Source of the DNA: Rhodococcus sp. HM1
Lineage (GTDB): Bacteria; Actinomycetota; Actinomycetes; Mycobacteriales; Mycobacteriaceae
Assembly (NCBI RefSeq): GCF_023218075.1
Contig: NZ_JALPTB010000001.1
Coordinates: 62,001-126,000, forward strand
Direction of reading: 5' to 3'
DNA length: 64,000 nt
Part shown: one piece after another, positions 29,651-33,887 of the stretch
How positions within the stretch are numbered: the stretch's first letter is position 1
Layout: every line of letters starts with the position of its first letter
Made by a program: the position numbers and the translations under genes
Notes under the pieces: generated by a model
Told to the model about the DNA's origin: nothing
Databases searched by the model: none
The model's input: the letters and a program-made list of their open reading frames with translations, nothing else

Positions 29651-29794
29651 CTTCTCCGGTGCCTGCGGGCAGCGAAATGCAACATGTTTCAGTTTTCGGC
29701 GTCCGGCGGTTATCGTGACGGACAGCAGGTGACGGAGCCCACACCGGCGGAGCTGCCGTCACCCCACGCCGTCACCACGAGCGGAAGGACGACC

Positions 29795-31348
29795 ATGACC
29801 GAGGAGTACGCCGACCTGCACCGGCCCGTGTTCACCGGGGACCTGCTGATCACCGCACTCGACCGAAGCGCCGACAAGCCCGCGCTGTACCTCGGCGACG
29901 TGGTGCTCACCGGTGGTGAAATGCGCGACGAGATAAGCCGGTTCGGGCAGGCGCTCGCGTCCGTTGGCGTCGGGCAGGGCTCGTCGGTGGCCATGCTGTC
30001 GAAGAACCGCCCCGAGGTGCTCATCTCCATGGGCGCGACGATGATCGCCGGTTGCCGCAACAGCGCCCTGAACCCGATGGGGTCGCTGACGGATCACCTG
30101 TACATCGTCGAGGACGCCGCGATCGAGACCCTCATCTTCGATCCCAACCACTTCGAGGAACGCGCCGCGGAACTGAAGGCGCAGGTCCCCACTTTGAAGA
30201 ACGTGTTCTCGCTCGGTCCGTCGGAGGTCGGCACCGACATCCTGGCACTCGCGGCGACGTTCACACCGCAGCGCCTCGTCGCCGCACCGGTGGACGCCGA
30301 GGACACCTCGAGCATCGTCTACACCGGCGGCACCACCGGCAAGCCGAAGGGTGTGATGGGGGCGTTCCGGTCCGGTGTCGCGCTGACCCAGATCCAGATG
30401 GCCGAATGGGAATGGCCCGAGGAACCCCGGTTCCTGATCTGCACGCCGCTCTCGCACGCGGGCGCCGCGTTCTTCGTCCCCACCCTGCTGCGCGGCGGAT
30501 CGCTGTACGTCCTGCCGTACTTCGACCCGGCCCTGGTGCTGGAAACCATCGAGAAGCATCGCATCAACGCCACGATGCTCGTGCCGACGATGATCTACAT
30601 GCTGCTCGACCACCCCGACTTCGACAAGCGCGACCTGTCGAGCCTGCAGACGCTGTTCTACGGCGCCTCGGCGATGTCGCCGGCGCGGCTGCGTGAGGGC
30701 ATCGAGCGGCTCGGCCAGGTGTTCTTCCAGTTCTACGGGCAGTCCGAGTGCGGCATGACCATCTCGGTGCTCCGCAAGAGCGAGCACATCGCCGACGACC
30801 CCGAGCGCCTCGCGACCTGCGGCCGGCCCGTGCCGTGGCTCGACGTGCGCCTGCTCGACGACGACCTCAACGAGGTGCCGCGCGGCGAGCTCGGCGAGAT
30901 CTGCGTGCGCGGCCCCCTGGTGATGAAGGGCTACCTGAACAAGCCCGCCGAGACCGCCGAGGCGCTACGCGGCGGCTGGCTGCACACCGGCGACGTGGCC
31001 CGTGCCGACAAGGACGGGTTCCTCACCATCGTCGACCGCAAGAAGGACATGATCGTCACCGGCGGTTTCAACGTCTTCCCCCGGGAGATCGAGGACGTCA
31101 TCTCGTCCCATCCCGCGGTCGCGTCGGTTGCGGTGGTCGGGGTGCCGGATGTCAAGTGGGGCGAGGCCGTGAAGGCGTGCGTCGTATTGCGGGACGGGCA
31201 GACGGTCACGGCCGAGGAGTTGATCGAGAGCGTGCGCGCTGCAAAGGGTTCGGTGCACGCGCCCAAGTCCGTCGACTTCCTCGACTCCCTGCCGCTGACT
31301 CCGCTGGGGAAGCTGGACAAGAAGACGTTGCGTGCCTCCTACCGGTAA
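29795..31348 (+). CDS. Acyl-CoA synthetase (AMP-dependent ligase, FadD-type)
   Basis: The 517-residue ANL-superfamily enzyme has the P-loop IVYTGGTTGKPKG (near 172-184), YGQSECG, GWLHTGD, the hinge VDRKKDMIVTGGFNVFP and the catalytic Lys in PLGKLDKKTL. It activates a carboxylic acid to its CoA ester. From memory it is nearest to the mycobacterial FadD8 group, whose substrate is unsettled. The ATG at 29795 has GGAAGGAC upstream; an in-frame ATG at 29684 would add 37 poorly conserved residues. It could activate acids from steroid side chains or fatty acids. Confidence 0.88.
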   Translation: MTEEYADLHRPVFTGDLLITALDRSADKPALYLGDVVLTGGEMRDEISRFGQALASVGVGQGSSVAMLSKNRPEVLISMGATMIAGCRNSALNPMGSLTDHLYIVEDAAIETLIFDPNHFEERAAELKAQVPTLKNVFSLGPSEVGTDILALAATFTPQRLVAAPVDAEDTSSIVYTGGTTGKPKGVMGAFRSGVALTQIQMAEWEWPEEPRFLICTPLSHAGAAFFVPTLLRGGSLYVLPYFDPALVLETIEKHRINATMLVPTMIYMLLDHPDFDKRDLSSLQTLFYGASAMSPARLREGIERLGQVFFQFYGQSECGMTISVLRKSEHIADDPERLATCGRPVPWLDVRLLDDDLNEVPRGELGEICVRGPLVMKGYLNKPAETAEALRGGWLHTGDVARADKDGFLTIVDRKKDMIVTGGFNVFPREIEDVISSHPAVASVAVVGVPDVKWGEAVKACVVLRDGQTVTAEELIESVRAAKGSVHAPKSVDFLDSLPLTPLGKLDKKTLRASYR

Positions 31349-31384
31349 GTGCGGCTGACGCCGCCGGTGTGCCTTTGTGGCGGT
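31349..31384 (+). repeat. 36-bp inverted repeat, left copy
   Basis: This copy matches the reverse complement of 32549-32584 in 35 of 36 positions. It begins directly after the acyl-CoA synthetase stop codon and ends on the stop codon of the minus-strand DUF559-type gene. It is also the left part of a hairpin (31364-31409, about 17 of 19 pairs: CCGGTGTG...GGCG with CGCC...CACACCGG) that could end transcription from both sides. Confidence 0.85.
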
Positions 31385-31409
31385 CAGGGCCGCCAAAAAG
31401 ACACACCGG
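31364..31409. terminator. Hairpin between acyl-CoA synthetase and DUF559-type gene
   Basis: The left arm, 31364-31382, and the right arm, 31391-31409, pair with two mismatches, with a run of five A on the plus strand in the right arm. The arm overlaps the last codons of the minus-strand gene, so its C-terminal residues (VSFWRP) are encoded by the repeat. Confidence 0.6.
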
Positions 31410-32430
31410 CAGCGCAGCTGCACTCGGACGGTGAGCGACGTCGCCACCCGAGGCGGACGAGGACCGCTTCGACCTCGGCCGCCACGCCGCACGGGTCGCG
31501 GACGACTTCGTCGTAGCCGTAGACCAATCGGGACCGGCCGGCCAGTTCGGCGGCGTTGTCCCGGCGACGGTCGCGGAAGGCGACCTCCGCCATCGCGTGG
31601 AACCGGCGCCCGTCGAGCCGGACCGTCAACGCGGCTCCGTGGGTGTCGTACGTGCAGTCCTCGTACAGAGTTCGCCCGTCGACGACCACCGGGGTCTGAC
31701 GGTCCGCCGACGGCAGACCGTGGCGGCGCTCGACGTCGGTGGCGTACCGGAACTCGAGCATCGACTGGACGCCCGAGGCGAGCAACCCGACGGCATCCTC
31801 GAGTGTCCTGCGGTAGCGATACGGCTTGCGCTCGTGCATGCGACGTCGCACCTCCGACAGGGGAATCCGCCCGTTCGTCACGATGCACACCAGGGCGCTG
31901 TAACCGTCCTGCGCAGTGGGTTCGGCCGTCGCCAGATCGATGGCGGTGTCGGCGGTGCTCGTGCGCGGCGGCATCGTCGGCACCGCGATATGCGGATGCG
32001 CGCGGCTGCGGTGGACGATCACCCCCGGATGCAGCATCTCCCCGAAGTGCGGCAGCCGGACGTCGCGGGGTTGCGCGGTCGCGAAGGTCGCGGGCTGACC
32101 CCTCGTCGACAGACCGAACGGGACGGTGACGTGTACGGGTGCGAGCGGGTCGATCGGCAGCAACCCCCATTCCTCGGCGGCCGTGCGATGGCTGAGGACC
32201 GCGACGTCGCCGCAGAACGCCAAGGCGGCGGCGAGGATCGCCGGGCGAGGCAACGGGCCGGTGGTCACCGAATACACGCCGTGGAGGACCTGCTGCCAGC
32301 GACCTCGGTCGAGGTGGTGGCGTATCCCGTGCCACGTGAATCCGTGATGCATCAGCTGGGCGCGGGTGACGATGCCGTGCTGGAACGCGACGACCCGGTC
32401 GAGTTCGGGGATCTCCGGAAGGAACGACAC
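31384..32430 (-). CDS. DUF559/AbiEi-like protein (possible nuclease-fold, unknown role)
   Basis: The 348-residue protein has an N-terminal AbiEi-antitoxin-like winged helix (IVTRAQLMHHGFTWHGIRHHLDRGRWQQVLHGVYSV). The C-terminal domain is reminiscent of DUF559/Vsr-type restriction-endonuclease folds (SMLEFRYATDVERRHGL, YEDCTYDTHGAALTVRLDGRRFH). This combination is common as multiple copies in Rhodococcus and Nocardia and its function is unknown. GTG 32430 is chosen because GAGGG lies five bases upstream. No toxin partner is adjacent. The gene lies between near-identical 36-bp inverted repeats, which suggests past movement. Confidence 0.72.
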   Translation of the reverse strand: MSFLPEIPELDRVVAFQHGIVTRAQLMHHGFTWHGIRHHLDRGRWQQVLHGVYSVTTGPLPRPAILAAALAFCGDVAVLSHRTAAEEWGLLPIDPLAPVHVTVPFGLSTRGQPATFATAQPRDVRLPHFGEMLHPGVIVHRSRAHPHIAVPTMPPRTSTADTAIDLATAEPTAQDGYSALVCIVTNGRIPLSEVRRRMHERKPYRYRRTLEDAVGLLASGVQSMLEFRYATDVERRHGLPSADRQTPVVVDGRTLYEDCTYDTHGAALTVRLDGRRFHAMAEVAFRDRRRDNAAELAGRSRLVYGYDEVVRDPCGVAAEVEAVLVRLGWRRRSPSECSCAAGVSFWRP

Positions 32431-32548
32431 GCCCTCATGATTGCCGTGTAGACCGCGCGGAGACGTCCGCGAACGGCGGATCGGCGAAATCTGTGGATGA
32501 ACAGGGCGGGTGGGGATAACCCCGCGGTGTGCACATGTGGCGGCGCCA

Positions 32549-32584
32549 ACCGCCACAAAGGCACACGGGCGGCGTCAGCCGCAC
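32549..32584 (-). repeat. 36-bp inverted repeat, right copy
   Basis: This is the reverse complement of the left copy at 31349-31384 with a single C/G difference. It too is one arm of a hairpin (about 32525-32568, with GTGTGC...TGTGGCGG opposite CCGCCACA...GCACAC). Its last base coincides with the first base of the globin-reductase stop codon, so each copy abuts a gene end. Confidence 0.85.
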
Positions 32585-33741
32585 TACAGAGGATCGAAAC
32601 TGATGTTCTGCCTGGGGGTTCCGGCCGCGGACAGGGCGTACAGCGTCGTCTTGATCATCGACGGGGAGCCGGCGATCTGGATCTGCCGGTCCGCCCACGA
32701 CCCGAACTGGGCCACGACCTTACCGAGCTTGCCGTACATCGTGCGGTGCAGGCCGGTCGGCGGTTCCAGCACGGGAACCGGGTGCCACCAAGGGTTTTCC
32801 TTCTCCTCGACGACCGGGACGACGGTGAGCCAGGGGTTGGTCATCGCCAGGTGCCACAGCGTCTCGATGTCGTACAGGTCGCACGGGTACTTGCCGCCGT
32901 AGAACAGGTGGACGCGCGGATTGTCCCCGCGCATCGCCATTTCCATGAGCTGCGCGCGCAGCGGGGCCAGGCCGGTGCCGCTGGCGATCATCAGCACGTC
33001 GCCGCGCGACCGGTCGACGTGCAGACCGCCGAGTGGCGGGCCGATGACCCACCGGTCGCCGACCGCGGTCTCGCCGACGAGTGCCGGGCTCACCCAGCCG
33101 CTGGACACGCGCCGGACGTGGAACTCGATCTGCCCCTGGGGGTTCGGCGGGATCGCCGCGGACAGGTACCGCCACATCTGCGGGCGGTGCGGGGTCTGCA
33201 CGCTCATGTACTGACCCGCGTGGTAAGGGATGGGGGAGTCGGTCTCGAGCCGGATGATCGCCAGGTCCGGCATCACCCGTTCGTGCCCGACGACGGTCGC
33301 GCCCCACACGGCGGGCAGGTCGTCCTCCGCGGACGCGATGGCCATGGCGGCGACCAGGCGGCTGATGATCTCGCGCCAGGTGTGTTCGAGGGCGGCCGTC
33401 CACAGGATCAGCGGTGTGCACTCGCGGACCGCGACGAGCATCGCCGCCCCGGCCGCCCGGAAGTGCTCGGGTCGCACCCCGTACTTGCGGTGGTCGCGGG
33501 CGAGCTGAGAGAGGAACGCCTCGACGACGGTGAAATCGCCGAGCCGGTTGACGGCCCACCCGACCGCGGTCGCGAACCGGTGCCGCATCGATTCCATGCC
33601 TGCCGGGAACAGCTCGCGCAGGGACGGGTTGTCCGCCCACAGTGCGGTGTAGAACGCGGACGCGAACCGTTCGGGGCCGGTGGGGGTGGCGACGATCGAC
33701 GCGAAACTGAGCTGGACACGGGCGATGGCGAAGGCCTCCAC
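32584..33741 (-). CDS. Globin-FAD/NAD reductase fusion (flavohaemoglobin-type)
   Basis: The 385-residue protein has an N-terminal globin-like domain (about 1-135; FYTALWADNPSLRELFP, proximal-His region ARDHRKYGVRPEHF) fused to an FAD barrel (YHAGQYMSVQTPHRPQMWRYLSAA) and an NAD(P) domain (IASGTGLAPLRAQLMEM), ending ISFDPL. It resembles the mycobacterial Rv0385 group rather than classical Hmp; those may oxidise D-lactate or handle NO. GTG 33741 is chosen because GGGAGGG (33746-33752) is ideally placed; longer starts at 33810 or 33813 lack a ribosome site. It is divergent from clpB, as in mycobacteria. Confidence 0.87.
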   Translation of the reverse strand: MEAFAIARVQLSFASIVATPTGPERFASAFYTALWADNPSLRELFPAGMESMRHRFATAVGWAVNRLGDFTVVEAFLSQLARDHRKYGVRPEHFRAAGAAMLVAVRECTPLILWTAALEHTWREIISRLVAAMAIASAEDDLPAVWGATVVGHERVMPDLAIIRLETDSPIPYHAGQYMSVQTPHRPQMWRYLSAAIPPNPQGQIEFHVRRVSSGWVSPALVGETAVGDRWVIGPPLGGLHVDRSRGDVLMIASGTGLAPLRAQLMEMAMRGDNPRVHLFYGGKYPCDLYDIETLWHLAMTNPWLTVVPVVEEKENPWWHPVPVLEPPTGLHRTMYGKLGKVVAQFGSWADRQIQIAGSPSMIKTTLYALSAAGTPRQNISFDPL

Positions 33742-33887
33742 GCCACCCTCCCACGTGCTGTTCCTGCTGGTCGGCCGCCACTGTAGCTGTTCCTTGATCA
33801 ATTGCGCCACCAACAGGTGACGTCCGACCGCGGCGGATAGCGCACACTGGAAGCGGGAGGGTGACGCAGATCACCGAAATTCCCAAA

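Follow-up and report, generated by a model that had tools for sequence, protein, structure and literature searches.

A gene of Rhodococcus sp. HM1 that lies between two inverted 40-bp palindromes is most likely the source of the cognate protein of a dispersed palindrome family, and gene and palindromes probably constitute one system, analogous to that of RAYT proteins and their REPs and built on an unrelated protein. The window, the whole 64,000-nucleotide stretch that was analysed (C110:62001-126000), belongs to a genome of 6.93 Mb in 247 contigs (G000). A preliminary description of this DNA reported 36-bp inverted copies with one mismatch, each abutting the stop codon of a neighbouring gene and forming half of a hairpin, with the final codons of the enclosed gene in the left copy, and these points were borne out (Table 1). 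On reading of the sequence, positions 31349-31384 differ from the reverse complement of 32549-32584 at 1 of 36 bases; the stop codons of the acyl-CoA synthetase (FACS) and flavohaemoglobin-like (FHB) genes adjoin the left and right units at 31348 and 32584; and the stop codon of the gene itself (31384-31386, minus strand) falls within the loop of the left palindrome. Every 36-bp repeat consists of a small side hairpin and one arm of a 40-bp palindrome, which runs from GTG to CAC with 17-bp arms and a 6-nt loop, the arms pairing at 15 of 17 positions in the left palindrome and at 14 of 17 in the right. A longer inverted pair, 31348-31408 and 32525-32585, is 61 nt in length and 85% complementary.

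Table 1. Features of the locus (positions in the window)
Feature	Position	Strand	Remarks
FACS, acyl-CoA synthetase neighbour	29684..31348	+	stop at 31348 adjoins left unit
Left outer side hairpin GCGGC-TGAC-GCCGC	31351..31364	.	between FACS stop and left palindrome; other copies built alike
Left 40-bp palindrome, dialect A	31367..31406	.	loop 31384-31389; last codons and stop of the gene inside
Palindrome-associated protein gene	31384..32430	-	encodes 348 aa; inferred start codon GTG, stop codon TGA within palindrome loop
Inner side hairpin, left unit	31409..31421	.	within coding region; sequence read
Vsr/EDxHD endonuclease-like fold, residues 221-330 (putative)	31441..31770	-	3hrl, 3r3p matches
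AbiEi-like region (AbiEi_4 winged helix and second domain), residues 5-218	31777..32418	-	Pfam 1.2e-6; PADLOC AbiEi 1.4e-17; fold match 6y8q
Right 40-bp palindrome, dialect A	32527..32566	.	upstream of gene
Right outer side hairpin	32569..32582	.	between right palindrome and FHB stop; sequence read
FHB, flavohaemoglobin-like protein neighbour	32584..33813	-	stop at 32584 adjoins right unit

The annotated reading frame starts at 32556, inside the right palindrome, and homology begins near 32430; translation therefore probably starts at the GTG codon 32428-32430. Close homologues were found in 6 of 18 genomes of the genus, three of which hold two paralogues, and the first nine homologues were all bracketed by 40-bp palindromes (9/9), those of the second paralogue being written in a differing spelling, here termed a dialect. 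An alignment of 8 sequences, used as the query against 301 genomes of the family, gave matches in 56 at 1e-25. The E-values of full-length genes fall from 1e-109 straight to 1e-28, with fragments alone between, and the protein family is thus well delimited. The 95 match rows, some of them halves of one gene and some fragments, yielded 92 loci for examination. Palindromes were present on both sides at 54 of these, on one side at 22, on one side at a contig end at 1 and on neither side at 15, the last group including two weak-tail loci (G256, G299) and two fragments. The fixed bracketing rule can miss cases, as at L393, which was scored as none despite a 17-arm inverted repeat near the 3′ end, beyond its range. 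Among weak AbiEi homologues, none of 14 loci carried a palindrome on either side (one of 15 was dropped, the HMM finding no gene there), and none of 8 Y1-transposase loci did so. FACS-family loci were bracketed on both sides in 0 of 26 cases and on one side in 3, which are neighbours of the palindrome-associated gene itself. Shuffled flanks gave 0 bracketed genes in 1400, and virtual genes placed at random in the palindrome-rich HM1 loci gave 6 in 2914. The stop codon of the gene lies in or at the downstream palindrome, with offsets that recur within a clade (-17, -23, -29, -32, -8). In three genomes, two paralogues lie approximately 9 kb apart, each with a dialect of its own (L372/L419, L386/L420, L389/L418). 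Two hosts of the system are presumably R. jostii RHA1 and R. opacus B4.

The palindrome is a member of a dispersed family at gene 3′ ends and not the private border of a cassette. In the HM1 genome, a core word occurred 60 + 59 times with at most one mismatch (reversed control, 5 + 3), and the two-arm pattern of dialect A matched 59 places with at most three mismatches (reversed control, 0). Within the window, a 16-mer core gave 5 matches with at most three mismatches, against 0.55 expected; this result and the two-arm count exclude the origin of the repeats by chance. Gene contexts were taken from a home-made codon-score gene finder. Of 58 HM1 copies, it put 29 in convergent gaps, 19 in tandem gaps and 2 in divergent gaps, and the other 8 within called genes, where errors are possible; as the baseline for the convergent enrichment, 7 of 39 intergenic gaps in the window are convergent. 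The nearest stop codon lies within approximately 20 nt in 37/42, 18/20 and 21/22 of the copies with a measurable distance in three further sets. A palindrome that apparently lies within a reading frame (L023, C110:126578-126617, just to the right of the window; L245) is conserved at the orthologous position in R. phenolicus DSM 44812 (G004).

The geometry of the family is narrowly fixed. The loop measured 6 nt in 54 of the 54 copies first collected, though 3-9 nt were permitted, and palindromes with a total length of 40 numbered 120, whereas other lengths were represented at most three times each, except for length 32, a form contained within GTGnGTG dialects. In a set of 151 distinct elements, pairing at the unfixed arm positions amounts to 72-98%, compared with 34-65% for shuffled partners, and the two central loop letters pair in 17%, compared with 35% expected; these two letters are both purines or both pyrimidines in 114 of the 151 elements and in 82 of 117 gene-flanking palindromes. 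The loop looks as if it were obliged to stay open, which would favour a folded strand over a plain duplex site. The types of arm mismatch were not used to argue for RNA or DNA, because plain transitions yield the same pattern. A search of Rfam returned nothing near the gathering score, the top rows being microRNA families far under the cut-off. Many palindromes carry short, variable, self-complementary side hairpins toward the stop codon (L001-L070), and since these stand between palindrome and stop, the distances separating the two cluster at approximately 2-8 or 14-20 nt. At L061 and L017, a full copy is accompanied by a partial or tandem duplicate of the element.

The dialects are unevenly distributed among genomes. 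Dialect A has 59 copies in HM1, 12 in R. phenolicus, 1 in G017 and 0 in the other 15 of the 18 genus genomes. Dialect B (GTGTGTCCTTTGGGCGG and variants) flanks the gene at the same two places in R. aetherivorans DSM 44752 (G001) and R. ruber NBRC 15591 (G007), and has 16 and 38 copies in these two genomes, respectively, and 0 in the other 16. Across the 301 family genomes, a looser two-arm pattern matched 14 (control, 0), and a general pattern, fixed solely at positions that the first dialects have in common, matched 55, with 1-161 copies each (control, 0). A similar exact pattern, scanned against the genomes of 84,980 species, from which records near the genome of the window may be left out, matched 31 stretches, all of them in Rhodococcus, Prescottella and Antrihabitans.

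Judged from the sequence comparisons, the spelling of the palindromes tracks the clade of the protein and not the genome. At 50 bracketed intact homologues, the arms of the flanking pair differ by 0.114 within a locus and by 0.456 between loci (0/2000 permutations), and protein distance correlates with arm distance (r = 0.71; 0/1000 permutations), as it does when the upstream palindromes are taken alone (r = 0.65, n = 60). Proteins more than 80% identical in different genomes share 0.91 of the arm letters (60 pairs), whereas paralogues within one genome share 0.51 (19 pairs), compared with 0.49 for 840 distant pairs. The correlation of flanks with protein is partly expected from linkage; the unlinked copies, which are beyond the reach of linkage, follow the same rule. 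The flank spelling of the second paralogue of one genus (g24), sought in 28 genomes, was present in 21: 40-98 copies in 12 of the 12 genomes with that gene (control, 0) and 0-45 copies in the 16 genomes lacking an intact one. One copy fetched per genome read GTGAGTACTT where the flanks of the gene read so, and GTGCGCCTTTATTAACC where the flanks read that. In G237, the flank and a dispersed copy have a private arm end in common, and in G076 (113 copies) and G055, the common spelling of the copies, which had been noticed before the gene was known, is that of the gene flanks. An exception is the G251 locus L379, where one gene lies between palindromes of two dialects and which is perhaps recombinant. 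Recognition of the palindrome by the protein is well supported by this co-variation.

Gene and repeat also co-occur. Among the 301 genomes, 30 hold the gene and the general pattern, 25 the pattern alone and 26 the gene alone (Fisher 8e-12, kinship ignored); in some gene-bearing genomes, copies of the searched pattern are few or missing altogether, and the pattern also overlooks dialects. Within the genus, the six gene-bearing genomes have 88, 50, 66, 8, 14 and 45 copies, and the twelve without the gene have 1-42 (p = 0.0018). Copies without the gene were found in G140 (54), G190 (45) and G016 (25), which is what a repeat that had outlived its installer would look like, and equally a looser link between gene and repeat.

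The protein itself was modelled with AlphaFold2 from 70 sequences (alignment A2: 72 less L413 and L435, with the window copy replacing L076), with a mean pLDDT of 84.7. Residues 5-218 of the model matched the AbiEi antitoxin 6y8q (Z 11.4, rmsd 4.8, 183 aligned) and Rv2827c 1zel (Z 8.6), and residues 221-330 matched NGO0050 3hrl (Z 8.7, 89 aligned) and I-Bth0305I 3r3p (Z 7.9, 91 aligned); the nuclease-like domain alone gave middling scores with 3hrl (Z 8.6), 3r3p (Z 7.5, Foldseek E 0.006) and 1vsr (Z 5.1). Residues invariant in the 70 sequences are E226, E257-D258, R271-L-D273-G, H278 and R286-D287-R288, of which E226, D258, H278 and D287 fit the E-D-x-H-D order, the loop with H278 and D287 being modelled at pLDDT <50. 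R271 occupies the place of a glutamate in DUF559 proteins. No Pfam nuclease domain was matched in the 70 members, NCBIfam holds no family for the palindrome-associated protein, and a sequence search of the PDB gave no match with the single sequence and two unrelated weak matches with the alignment. A CxC pair (residues 337-339), just before the tail encoded by the palindrome, is nearly invariant in the 70 homologues. Related folds are also put to use on RNA, an example being FASTKD4, which according to excerpts from one report (PMC11879112) is similar to Vsr and I-Bth0305I and has apparently lost its nuclease activity; a role at RNA ends is therefore possible.

Turnover of the palindromes was followed at orthologous gene ends, with a joined query of 32 palindrome-bearing gene ends of HM1 (32 of the 33 suitable, from 58 copies) and their orthologues in three genomes, all scored under one fixed rule. 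In R. phenolicus, 7 of these ends bear a 40-bp palindrome, 9 cleanly lack one, 14 show something else, and for 2 no orthologue was retrieved; the corresponding numbers for G017 are 5, 9, 16 and 2. R. ruber has a palindrome at 4 ends, all in another spelling, a clean absence at 2, something else at 7 and no orthologue retrieved at 19. What appears to be the clearest case of replacement in place is end L055, with a GTGCGCG...GGTAG palindrome in R. phenolicus and R. ruber and dialect A in HM1. Other orthologous ends in the relatives carry an unrelated strong hairpin, a side hairpin alone or remnants. The FACS gene end of several further species bears a long, perfect GC hairpin that is unrelated in sequence (L139, L141, L143-L145).

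One mechanism would accommodate these features. The AbiEi-like front of the protein would bind arms written in the protein's own dialect, and the Vsr/EDxHD-like rear would nick or cut at the hairpin, or at gene ends that are empty or carry a foreign dialect; repair from a resident copy would then install the palindrome or overwrite the one present. Such cutting and repair, by which the nuclease-like domain is inferred to drive the conversion, copying and spread of the palindrome, would explain how copies appear, vanish and change dialect in place. The installed hairpins probably double as bidirectional transcript ends, a role through which palindromes could outlive the gene. In the full form of the proposal, a previously undescribed selfish system, combining an AbiEi-type module with a Vsr/EDxHD-like domain, would home into gene ends at large, install a 40-bp palindrome and convert older ones to its own dialect, with the result that transcript ends at dozens of unlinked places would evolve together with a single gene; the chances for and against this form are judged to be even.

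Binding without spread is an unlikely reading, though one of real weight: the protein would be a regulator, or a chromosome-organising or termination factor, with sites that co-evolve by selection and flanking palindromes that serve as operators, comparable to the inverted repeats to which AbiEi antitoxins bind at their promoters. The matching of dialects demands binding alone, the AbiEi fold brings a DNA-binding domain, and the palindromes lie mostly beside stop codons with an excess between convergent genes. An operator would not be expected over the gene's own stop codon, where one palindrome lies and no promoter does; nor does binding alone sit easily with sites that are present or absent between species with ~90% identical genes, with copies that persist in genomes without the gene, or with a fused nuclease-like domain.

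That ordinary bidirectional terminators flank the gene by accident, and that their likeness is a by-product of local copying, is improbable. A scan for canonical intrinsic terminators (GC-rich hairpin with a U-tract) found 0 sites in 31200-32700, and termination requires neither a fixed 40-bp length nor a common arm spelling; this reading also leaves aside the bracketing of 54 of the 92 same-family loci and the prediction of dialects, despite the closeness of the hairpins to stop codons and the unrelated strong hairpins present at some of these ends in relatives. Termination may well be an additional function of the hairpins.

The reading favoured in the preliminary description, either a mobile cassette or the insertion of a gene between palindromic element copies, now has very little probability. 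The gene and both palindromes stand at the FACS end in HM1, R. aetherivorans and R. ruber (the second of these with an extra reading frame between the right palindrome and FHB) and are absent there in R. phenolicus and G017, which speaks for this reading; however, the three species share the neighbours and both palindromes at 80% protein identity, with repeats that have diverged between dialects A and B, and the second paralogue keeps the same neighbour reading frame in HM1 and G017. By these comparisons, descent appears mostly vertical and the gene no recent insert. Both observations that the description had named as refuting its reading, diverged repeats around a fixed arrangement in relatives and a hairpin that is common at gene ends, were made. 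The cassette itself is thus given up, while the association of gene and repeats that the description implied is upheld by the bracketed loci, and its remark that a transposase is lacking holds for Y1/RAYT proteins in the HM1 genome. A classical REP/REPIN family mobilised by a RAYT (Y1 HUH transposase) is of negligible probability: dispersed palindromes with species-specific spelling do resemble REPs, as excerpts from PMC2817692 and PMC3733652 describe them, but Y1_Tnp (PF01797), present in 5 of the 18 genomes, has no match in the copy-rich HM1, R. aetherivorans and R. phenolicus, and the Y1 loci carry no palindrome.

If gene and palindromes do form one system, some orphan AbiEi antitoxins would gain a concrete job. 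Every lineage of the protein would recognise a 17-letter arm of its own, providing a natural series of protein-DNA recognition pairs, and the many pairs of dialect and protein would make a recognition code testable from sequence. The system would also make it possible to test directly how repeats at many unlinked places in bacterial genomes come to alter their spelling together, and it suggests that a selfish system put some gene-end hairpins in place, which were afterwards retained as transcript ends.

Several known systems share parts of this arrangement, and the open-licence PMC literature searched yielded no description of the repeat or of a link between AbiEi proteins and palindromes. The AbiE antitoxin has the N-terminal winged helix and the following domain in common with the palindrome-associated protein, which differs in its extra C-terminal nuclease-like domain and in its neighbours, FACS and FHB, in place of the adjacent AbiEii toxin of the AbiE system. 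The fold of residues 221-330 and the order E-D-x-H-D are putatively shared with Vsr and EDxHD homing endonucleases such as I-Bth0305I (as treated in excerpts from the review PMC3943268), yet the gene lies outside any intron and is tied to dozens of sites, not one. Uptake-sequence terminators of the Pasteurellaceae place a fixed word as an inverted pair at gene 3′ ends, the word of H. influenzae having ~1300 copies and serving as an uptake signal (excerpts from PMC5217627), whereas the copies described here are full palindromes that bracket a cognate gene; the uptake-sequence reading was set aside, the copies read being palindromes. An integron attC reading was dropped on the basis of the attC motif.

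The closest likeness is to REP/RAYT systems ("REPtrons"), in which, according to excerpts from two reports (PMC2817692; PMC3733652), a gene lies between two inverted palindromic repeats, numerous further copies are dispersed at gene 3′ ends, the repeat co-evolves with the protein, and orphan repeats occur where the gene is missing. Two-sided bracketing by inverted repeats of a dispersed family, copies at 3′ ends, co-evolution of repeat with protein and orphan repeats all recur here. The system is nevertheless no RAYT: the RAYT protein is a Y1 HUH enzyme, whereas the present one is AbiEi-like (matching AbiEi_4) and Vsr/EDxHD-like, and REPs have a one-sided GTAG or CGTC tag, whereas dialect A copies are symmetric (GTG...CAC) with no tag at either end. 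The hosts, unlike those of REP/RAYT, are actinobacterial, and if the proposal is correct, actinobacteria would have a REP-like system of their own, with a cognate protein unrelated to HUH transposases.
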